Source: Pygmaiobacter sp. (GTDB lineage: Bacteria; Bacillota; Clostridia; Oscillospirales; Ruminococcaceae). From it: a stretch of DNA of 41,362 nucleotides. The translations under genes were made by a program, and so were the position numbers. The notes beneath the pieces were generated by a model. The model was not told where the DNA came from. It was given only the letters and a program-made list of their open reading frames with translations, and made no database searches. The stretch covers positions 1 to 41,362 of the forward strand of contig JAQVCK010000006.1 of NCBI GenBank assembly GCA_028689835.1. The letters are read 5' to 3'. Below, piece after piece: positions 32,622 through 33,790 of the stretch. How positions within the stretch are numbered: position 1 is the stretch's first letter; each line of letters starts with the position of its first letter.

Positions 32622-33560
32622 TTAAATCCACTTTTTGCGCATCATCACCCAAATTGCCCCCAATGTCAACGCCAGAGCAATGGCCATAATATACAAAAAG
32701 CCAAACGGGTTTTGCGCAAAAGGCACCGGCACGTTCATACCCCAAAGCCCAAACACAATCGTTGGGATGGTGAGTGCAATGGTGATGACCGCCAGCAGCT
32801 TCATCACGATATTCAGGTTATTTGAAATGACCGAGGCAAACGCGTCCATCGTACCGCTTAAAATGTCGCGGTAAATATTGCTCATCTCAATGGCCTGCTT
32901 ATTTTCAATAATGACATCTTCCAGCAGTTCGGTGTCCTCCGGGTAATCTTTCACAAAATCAAGCCGCAACATTTTTTCCAGCACGATCTCGTTGCTTTTC
33001 AGCGCGGTAGAAAAATACACAAGGCTTTTTTCCAGCCCCAGCATCTGAATCAACTCTTTGTTTTTCATGCTGATGTGCAGCTCGTTTTCAACCCGGGTGC
33101 TACTTTTGTCCACCTGGCGCAGGTAAAACAAGAATAGCGTGGCGTTGCGGTACAAAAATTGCAGCGTCATGCGGTTTTTTTTGCGGGTGTTCAGCCCGCG
33201 CACCAGCCCCTCGGTAAAGGCGCGGGGCAACGCCACCTCTTTCAGGCAGACCGTCACAATGTTGTCGTCGGTCAAAATAATGCCAAACGGCAACGTGTTG
33301 TACACAAAGTTCGGCCCCTGTGTTTCTACCGTCGGGGTGTCCACCAAAATCAGGGTGTGCCCGTCCTCAATTTCCAGCCGGCTGCGTTCCTCTTCATCCA
33401 GCGCGGCAACTAAAAAGTCGCGCTCAATCGACAGGCAGGATGAGACCCGCCCAATTTCTTCTTCCGTCGGCGCGCAAAGGTGCACCCAGCAGCCGGGCAG
33501 GATTTTCTCCTGCTCTGCCAGTGCGCCGTTGACGGGGTTGGTCATGTAAATATCAATCAT
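32622..33560 (-). CDS. corA: CorA family divalent cation transporter
   Basis: This 312-residue protein is a channel-like transporter of Mg2+ or related metals, normally a homopentamer. A large N-terminal cytoplasmic alpha/beta domain is followed by a long stalk helix and two C-terminal helices (about 252-273 and 287-306). The signature GMN is at 274-276 (GLWGMNVPVP) with the positively charged C-terminal RKKWI. CorA-type metal specificity (Mg, Co, Ni, Zn) cannot be set by this motif. The ATG has AGGTG about 5 nt upstream. It has an unusual 5' leader with a terminator and a closed multi-helix element. Confidence 0.92.
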   Translation of the reverse strand: MIDIYMTNPVNGALAEQEKILPGCWVHLCAPTEEEIGRVSSCLSIERDFLVAALDEEERSRLEIEDGHTLILVDTPTVETQGPNFVYNTLPFGIILTDDNIVTVCLKEVALPRAFTEGLVRGLNTRKKNRMTLQFLYRNATLFLFYLRQVDKSSTRVENELHISMKNKELIQMLGLEKSLVYFSTALKSNEIVLEKMLRLDFVKDYPEDTELLEDVIIENKQAIEMSNIYRDILSGTMDAFASVISNNLNIVMKLLAVITIALTIPTIVFGLWGMNVPVPFAQNPFGFLYIMAIALALTLGAIWVMMRKKWI

Positions 33561-33598
33561 GCGTCACCTGCTTTCCCGGGCAGGGTCAGGCGCGCTGT

Positions 33599-33690
33599 GA
33601 GTGTAAAACCACTCGCCGGCGGGCCCGGCTACCCGGCATATTCATACTACTTCGAGGGTTAGGATCGCCTTCCACGAGGGTTTCACTCTC
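33599..33690 (-). ncRNA. Structured element in the corA leader (riboswitch candidate)
   Basis: On the minus-strand RNA the segment 33690-33675 (GAGAGUGAAACCCUCG) pairs with 33618-33599 (CGAG-U-GGUUUUACACUC), giving a closing helix of about 14 pairs with small bulges. Inside are GGA-AGGCGA-UCC, a purine-rich single-stranded stretch (AACCCUCGAAGUAGUAUGAAUA is split by no stem) and CCGG-GUAG-CCGG. The element ends 38 nt before corA. It does not match the M-box, yybP-ykoY, NiCo, fluoride or GEMM motifs that I can recall. A compact, closed junction ahead of a metal-transporter gene suggests a metal-responsive RNA. Confidence 0.5.
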
Positions 33691-33724
33691 CTTTTTTGTA
33701 AAATTTGTTTGGGGCCGCAAAAAA

Positions 33725-33744
33725 AGCGCAGGTTTTACTGCGCT
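33725..33744 (-). terminator. Intrinsic terminator between galactosidase gene and corA
   Basis: AGCGCAG pairs with CTGCGCT around a 6-nt loop and is followed by seven T (33725-33719). It may end the alpha-galactosidase transcript. It also lies downstream of the apparent corA promoter, so corA transcripts must read through it. Confidence 0.8.
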
Positions 33745-33760
33745 GTTTTGCTGTATCTTT

Positions 33761-33790
33761 AGTTTAGCCTATTTTAGGCTGTTTTGTCAA
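33761..33790 (-). promoter_or_regulatory. Promoter of corA with inverted repeat in the spacer
   Basis: TTGACA (33790-33785) and TAAACT (33766-33761) are 18 bp apart. AGCCTA-AAA-TAGGCT (33766-33780) is a perfect inverted repeat that fills most of the spacer and touches the -10, suggesting a repressor site. Confidence 0.6.

Follow-up and report, generated by a model that had tools for sequence, protein, structure and literature searches.

An acidic-proline upstream reading frame overlaps competing, covarying helices in corA leaders of Pygmaiobacter and other Clostridia, suggesting a Mg2+-responsive translational attenuator

The corA leader of Pygmaiobacter sp. analyzed here probably acts as a translational attenuator operated by a short upstream open reading frame (uORF)—ribosome failure at an acidic-proline motif under low Mg2+ would turn corA on. 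The leader lies in a window of 41,362 nucleotides (the whole stretch of DNA that was analyzed), which is one contig of a 2.7-Mb genome split into 273 contigs. Within this reading, we infer that ribosomes drop off at the motif, that Mg2+ is the signal and which way the response runs; the reading frame, its motif and the helices that overlap it were followed through 182 distinct corA leaders, nearly all of them clostridial, taken from a contig collection and, at family and order level, from whole genomes.

The gene itself (corA, 32622..33560; this and all features of its leader are on the minus strand) encodes a CorA-family divalent cation channel of 312 amino acids with a WGMN motif (Pfam PF01544, E = 4.5e-50). 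The nearest solved structures are the CorA Mg transporters 4cy4 and 4ev6, and the closest named relatives of the gene belong to uncultured Pygmaiobacter. We take CorA to serve here as a Mg2+ importer; another ion could be its cargo. In one leader of the set (L061), a NiCo riboswitch at positions 685-781 precedes a corA-family gene without an acidic uORF, a case implying that members of the corA family may differ in the ion they carry and that their regulation differs accordingly. Upstream of the corA leader in the window, on the same strand, lies an alpha-galactosidase gene (36215-33825).

Transcription of corA is expected to start from a sigma-70-type promoter, TTGACA-18-TAAACT (33761..33790; TTGACA at 33790-33785 and TAAACT at 33766-33761). 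The first-pass annotation had named this promoter, and since it recurs at the same place with a spacing of 17-18 in 26 of 27 close homologues, we consider it real. The inverted repeat described within it is present in the window and, being missing from the other promoters inspected, is probably a product of chance. About 10 nt past the expected transcript start there is a terminator-like hairpin (33718..33744) with the arms GCGCAG and CTGCGC, followed by T7. It had been read as a clean terminator; the hairpin and its T-run are indeed there, but it is no more than a candidate terminator, in that most of the 27 close homologues compared carry the hairpin, whereas a clear T-run is confined to the Pygmaiobacter leaders and a handful of further ones. 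The hairpin may stabilise the 5' end of the transcript or attenuate it, and transcripts arriving from the alpha-galactosidase gene of the window could also stop there.

Directly upstream of corA, the window carries a uORF of 29 codons (33586..33675, GTG start, peptide VEGDPNPRSSMNMPGSRARRRVVLHSQRA*) with a Shine-Dalgarno (SD) sequence, AAGGAG, just ahead of it. Its first codons, GTG-GAA-GGC-GAT-CCT, read M-E-G-D-P, so that codons 2-5 (33661..33672) form a conserved acidic-proline motif, Glu-Gly-Asp-Pro, with its acidic residues at E2 and D4 and its proline at P5. Homologous leaders share this stretch as (A/G)TG-GA(A/C)-GGC-GA(C/T)-CC(N), varying mostly at third bases: the window peptide begins MEGDPNPRSS, and others begin MEGDPKPRSC, MDGDPGSRMC or MEGEPRSRST, while L150 holds a variant with an extra codon, MDGEGP by eye. 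Among close relatives, uORF length ranges from 22 to about 40 codons, and the motif holds only one or two acidic residues. We called a uORF strict when an SD-like site preceded its start codon and codons 4-5 read D/E-P, all within 300 nt. Such a uORF was found in 97 of the 182 corA leaders, compared with a mean of 0.9 and a maximum of 4 in 60 dinucleotide shuffles; a looser rule recovered 121 of 182 (3.5 in shuffles) and still left 61 leaders without the motif. A wider sample of the phylum was patchier—9 of 28 corA leaders by the loose rule, 4 by the strict one and 19 without the motif. The low count of acidic residues and the many leaders that lack the motif weigh against the attenuator reading.

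Once near-duplicates were dropped, 85 strict uORFs were left for codon counts. Start codons were ATG (40), GTG (37) or TTG (8); codon 4 was GAC in 68, GAT in 14 and GAG in 3 (D 82, E 3), and codon 5 was CCT in 48, CCG in 25, CCC in 9 and CCA in 3, so that all 85 have proline, as the selection demands. Since uORFs were selected for D/E-P, how often it occurs carries no weight as evidence; what does count is that strict uORFs far outnumber those in shuffles and that the wobble bases vary. At codons 4 and 5 the first and second bases are invariant and the wobble bases variable, and it is at these invariant bases, along with the SD and the start codon, that sequence information peaks. Synonymous variation, exchange of D for E and low information at wobble positions together show, at the level of sequence comparison, that the uORF is under selection for its peptide. 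Codon choice past the motif is also biased, with CGA for Arg and AGT for Ser (33646-33657 in the window, uORF codons 7-10); CGAAGT recurs after codon 5 in only part of the leader set, and this bias perhaps reflects codon slowing or a signal at the RNA level.

The same nucleotides take part in a set of alternative helices. Segment 1 (33667..33690) comprises the SD side of the uORF, its start codon and first codons, and forms the 5' arm of helix 1:2, the closing helix, in which 33690-33667 pairs with 33624-33599; in the window, the uORF SD and start codon make up the 5' strand of this helix. The first-pass annotation had described it as about 14 pairs, and the helix is real, with 21 pairs in the predicted fold when counted with interruptions. 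Segment 2 lies inside the uORF and occupies 33599..33624 as the 3' arm of helix 1:2; in the predicted fold of helix 2:3 it covers the later half of the uORF (33610..33638) and, with segment 1 occupied by a ribosome, finds its partners at 33574-33583 and 33587-33603. Segment 3 (33574..33603) spans the uORF end, the stop codon and the bases after it, and holds the anti-SD GCCTG. Segment 4 (33561..33570), made up of the corA SD (CAGGTG) and spacer, pairs with 33595-33587 in helix 3:4—a second hairpin between the closed element and corA that sequesters the corA SD. Fold-energy z-scores were between -1.1 and -2.3 (-1.1 for 111 nt, -2.0 for 135 nt and -2.3 for the whole leader); we treat single-sequence fold energy as modest evidence and do not rely on it, and the comparative evidence carries the case.

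Since a MAFFT alignment fails to align segment 2, column-wise covariation was dropped in favor of an alignment-free partner-swapping test, in which the best duplex energy of two segments from the same leader is compared with that of segments swapped between leaders; the resulting z-scores treat leaders as exchangeable and ignore phylogeny, with near-duplicates above 80% identity removed. Among 26 close homologues, the uORF start region against +42..+72 (helix 1:2) gave -21.0 kcal/mol for native pairs and -16.6 for swapped ones (z -7.1), and late uORF against post-stop sequence (2:3) gave z -6.5. The post-stop sequence against the corA SD (3:4) reached z -2.5, a signal limited by the near invariance of both segments (z -1.1 in the de-duplicated close group, with little variation), while six control pairings ranged from -0.3 to +1.9. 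Across 66 distant, de-duplicated leaders, the test gave z -9.8 for 1:2, -9.5 for 2:3 (40 leaders) and -10.7 for 3:4 (50 leaders), against control pairings between -1.0 and +2.6; no covariation was detected by partner swapping for segment 2 with the corA SD (2:4), nor for segment 1 with segments 3 or 4. Two leaders illustrate the point: in L062 the late-uORF stretch AATGGGTTTACTTAT is complementary to the post-stop stretch ATAAGTAAACCCAT, and in L058 the counterparts are GGGTTTATTTTCC and GGAAAATCAACCC—different in sequence, the same in pairing. The first-pass annotation had suggested looking for covariation in related corA leaders, and this comparison shows that three competing helices covary there. 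Covariation and the window fold agree on mutually exclusive helices that overlap the uORF, and the covarying 3:4 helix points to masking of the corA SD. A DNA similarity search with the leader in 299 genomes of the family gave convincing matches only in two genomes of the same genus, the others being short and near chance.

Accessibility calculations on 63 leaders are consistent with a switch between these helices. The corA SD is mostly paired in the free RNA (mean unpaired probability 0.24), and blocking the uORF start, as a ribosome held there would, raised mean accessibility to 0.40 (33 up and 5 down of 63; p = 2.6e-6); blocking segment 2 brought no rise (mean 0.21). The corresponding values in the window are 0.14, 0.70 and 0.14, and here too the prediction is that holding a ribosome at the start of the uORF opens up the corA SD. 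In the mechanism that we propose, helix 1:2 of the resting RNA would tie the uORF start to the later uORF and helix 3:4 would hide the corA SD. With ample Mg2+, ribosomes would read the uORF to its stop and clear segment 2, and the RNA would return to 1:2 plus 3:4 with corA off. Under low Mg2+, ribosomes would pause or drop off at the acidic-proline codons 2-5, leaving segment 1 repeatedly occupied and segment 2 free of ribosomes; segment 2 would then pair with segment 3, which would release the corA SD and allow CorA to be made.

The link to magnesium draws on the surroundings of the uORF in other genomes. A cmscan search over 60 corA loci placed an M-box shortly upstream of corA in six leaders (L042, L046, L049, L058, L062 and L110), and all six carry an acidic-proline uORF between the M-box and corA by the loose rule, with L042, L058 and L062 also passing the strict one. 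The location of some uORF-bearing corA genes behind a Mg2+ riboswitch supports Mg2+ as the relevant signal, and the M-box and acidic-proline uORF are candidates for two Mg2+ sensors in series before one corA. A further leader, L054, has an M-box about 680 nt upstream of corA and no uORF. Within the same family, the strict uORF was absent from all 28 mgtE leaders and all 11 P-type mgtA leaders searched. One short ORF with an SD, MDSDGNPRR..., lies about 111 nt before a P-type mgtA (L228); it is acidic at codons 2 and 4 and fails the strict rule.

The first-pass annotation had taken the closed multi-helix element for a possible metal-sensing RNA, and a divalent ion binding to it directly, with the uORF incidental, would make it a riboswitch. 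We regard this as very improbable. Part of the proposal holds: the leader is a covarying, cis-regulatory element of corA, plausibly linked to Mg2+, and its helices are genuine. Its architecture is nevertheless that of a ribosome-operated attenuator and not of an aptamer, the element being a 29-codon uORF with competing helices; the conserved single-stranded purine-rich stretch noted earlier proves to be uORF codons 8-13. A new metal-binding class was considered as a candidate and set aside, as a conserved unpaired binding core was not found and the information sits at the SD, the start codon and codons 4-5: conservation tracks codons and not a loop motif, the loop of helix 1:2 differs between leaders both in its length and in its sequence, and the helices compete and overlap the uORF. 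The lack of a match to any known class keeps a new one formally possible. As the first-pass annotation had judged from its look, the element falls outside the M-box, yybP-ykoY, NiCo and fluoride classes, with no such Rfam match in the window or the leader; cmscan, the check it had suggested, assigned the leader to no Rfam family at gathering score, and relaxed matches fell far below the family cut-offs (E of at least 0.075). Elsewhere in the window, Rfam identifies an SpF59/ldcC RNA (RF02440; 4389-4446, minus strand; 62.1 bits, gathering score 37.2), and downstream of it on that strand lies an ORF (4085-3306) resembling, by eye, S-adenosylmethionine decarboxylase. This suggests that SpF59, described as a streptococcal sRNA, may be a polyamine-related leader also outside streptococci.

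Two other readings keep the uORF at the center. Cues other than Mg2+—such as prolyl-tRNA supply, EF-P or ABC-F activity, or general translation stress slowing the acidic-proline codons—might drive the same attenuator, which we hold to be unlikely, though not negligibly so. Every strict uORF has proline at codon 5 (by definition) and often at codon 3; Salmonella mgtA is reported to respond to EF-P (PMC6460261), and EttA acts on MgtL. Against such cues, many strict uORF peptides have a single proline in the motif while nearly all have an acidic residue, and both the tandem M-box riboswitches and the CorA target point to Mg2+. The main ambiguity concerns the sign of the response. With a ribosome placed at the uORF stop, the corA SD likewise becomes accessible in the calculations (mean 0.42; 0.71 in the window), and full translation of the uORF could therefore activate corA instead: with the stop codon at or beside the anti-SD in many close homologues, a ribosome finishing the uORF would open helix 3:4. 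If the motif aborts translation, such coupling would mean that less importer is made when Mg2+ is low; it leaves the covarying 2:3 helix unexplained and runs contrary to mgtL, corL and mgtQ, and we give it only a slim chance.

Attenuation in response to Mg2+ through the corA uORF has its closest parallels in enterobacteria. MgtL, the leader peptide of enterobacterial mgtA, is likewise encoded by a short uORF with an acidic-proline motif at codons 2-5 before a Mg2+ transporter gene, and ribosomes dissociate at its EPDP motif at low Mg2+ (PMC11282234)—the event proposed here as the trigger for the corA uORF. It differs in phylum and RNA, and governs a P-type ATPase gene through Rho-dependent termination of transcription, whereas the predicted output here is access to the corA SD. 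The uORF mgtQ, between Salmonella mgtC and mgtB, likewise has acidic codons and alternative helices 1:2, 2:3 and 3:4, the last of which masks the downstream SD; its Asp2 and Glu5 reduce translation of mgtQ and, by releasing the mgtB SD from stem-loop 3:4, increase mgtB (PMC8092293). Unlike the corA uORF, mgtQ has 8 codons, lies inside an operon in Enterobacteriaceae and has a proline codon that acts only via base pairing. The corL uORF also sits in a corA leader (E. coli and Salmonella), where a stem hides the uORF SD and efficient corL translation lowers corA, the two being inversely related in E. coli (PMC11552253), but it has few proline or acidic codons and acts through Rho. The corA motif of gamma-proteobacteria was, like the present element, first taken as a riboswitch candidate, and the published motif is confined to that group. 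The M-box (ykoK) resembles our proposal in Mg2+-sensing control of transporter genes; the window has none, its element is separate, and in tandem leaders the uORF lies downstream of the M-box. In the mycobacterial pe20 operon an M-box is followed by a conserved uORF2 with a conserved proline, but in that operon the uORF is itself under M-box control, its peptide is specific to mycobacteria and no attenuator on corA has been described.

In the open-access literature, uORF control of Mg2+ transporters appears only in enterobacteria and close relatives, together with the mycobacterial M-box-controlled uORF; an earlier mention in subscription papers, which lie outside this scope, is possible. Among the large surveys of intergenic regions searched, one gives the corA motif, for gamma-proteobacteria only, and two others have no corA in their main text. 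By analogy of architecture and motif, the corA leaders may work as mgtQ and mgtL do, in a different phylum, gene and RNA. On balance we favor, with somewhat less assurance than the attenuator itself, the view that ribosome-based Mg2+ sensors of a widespread and hitherto undescribed class act on corA across Clostridia, that they arose separately from enterobacterial mgtL and mgtQ and that in some species they stand behind an M-box.

For the study of leaders in general, a covarying leader whose uORF goes unnoticed can be mistaken for a riboswitch. The leaders with both M-box and uORF lend themselves directly to testing how a pair of sensors for the same ion share the work, and the more than 80 natural uORF variants offer a resource for learning which residues destabilise ribosomes. 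If our reading is correct, the corA genes with tandem elements would be gated twice—by an RNA aptamer for transcription and by a destabilisable ribosome for translation. Sensing of Mg2+ through acidic-proline leader peptides is so far known from a few enterobacterial genes; ribosome destabilisation would then be a general bacterial strategy and not an enterobacterial speciality, at work in Clostridia of which many are gut anaerobes.
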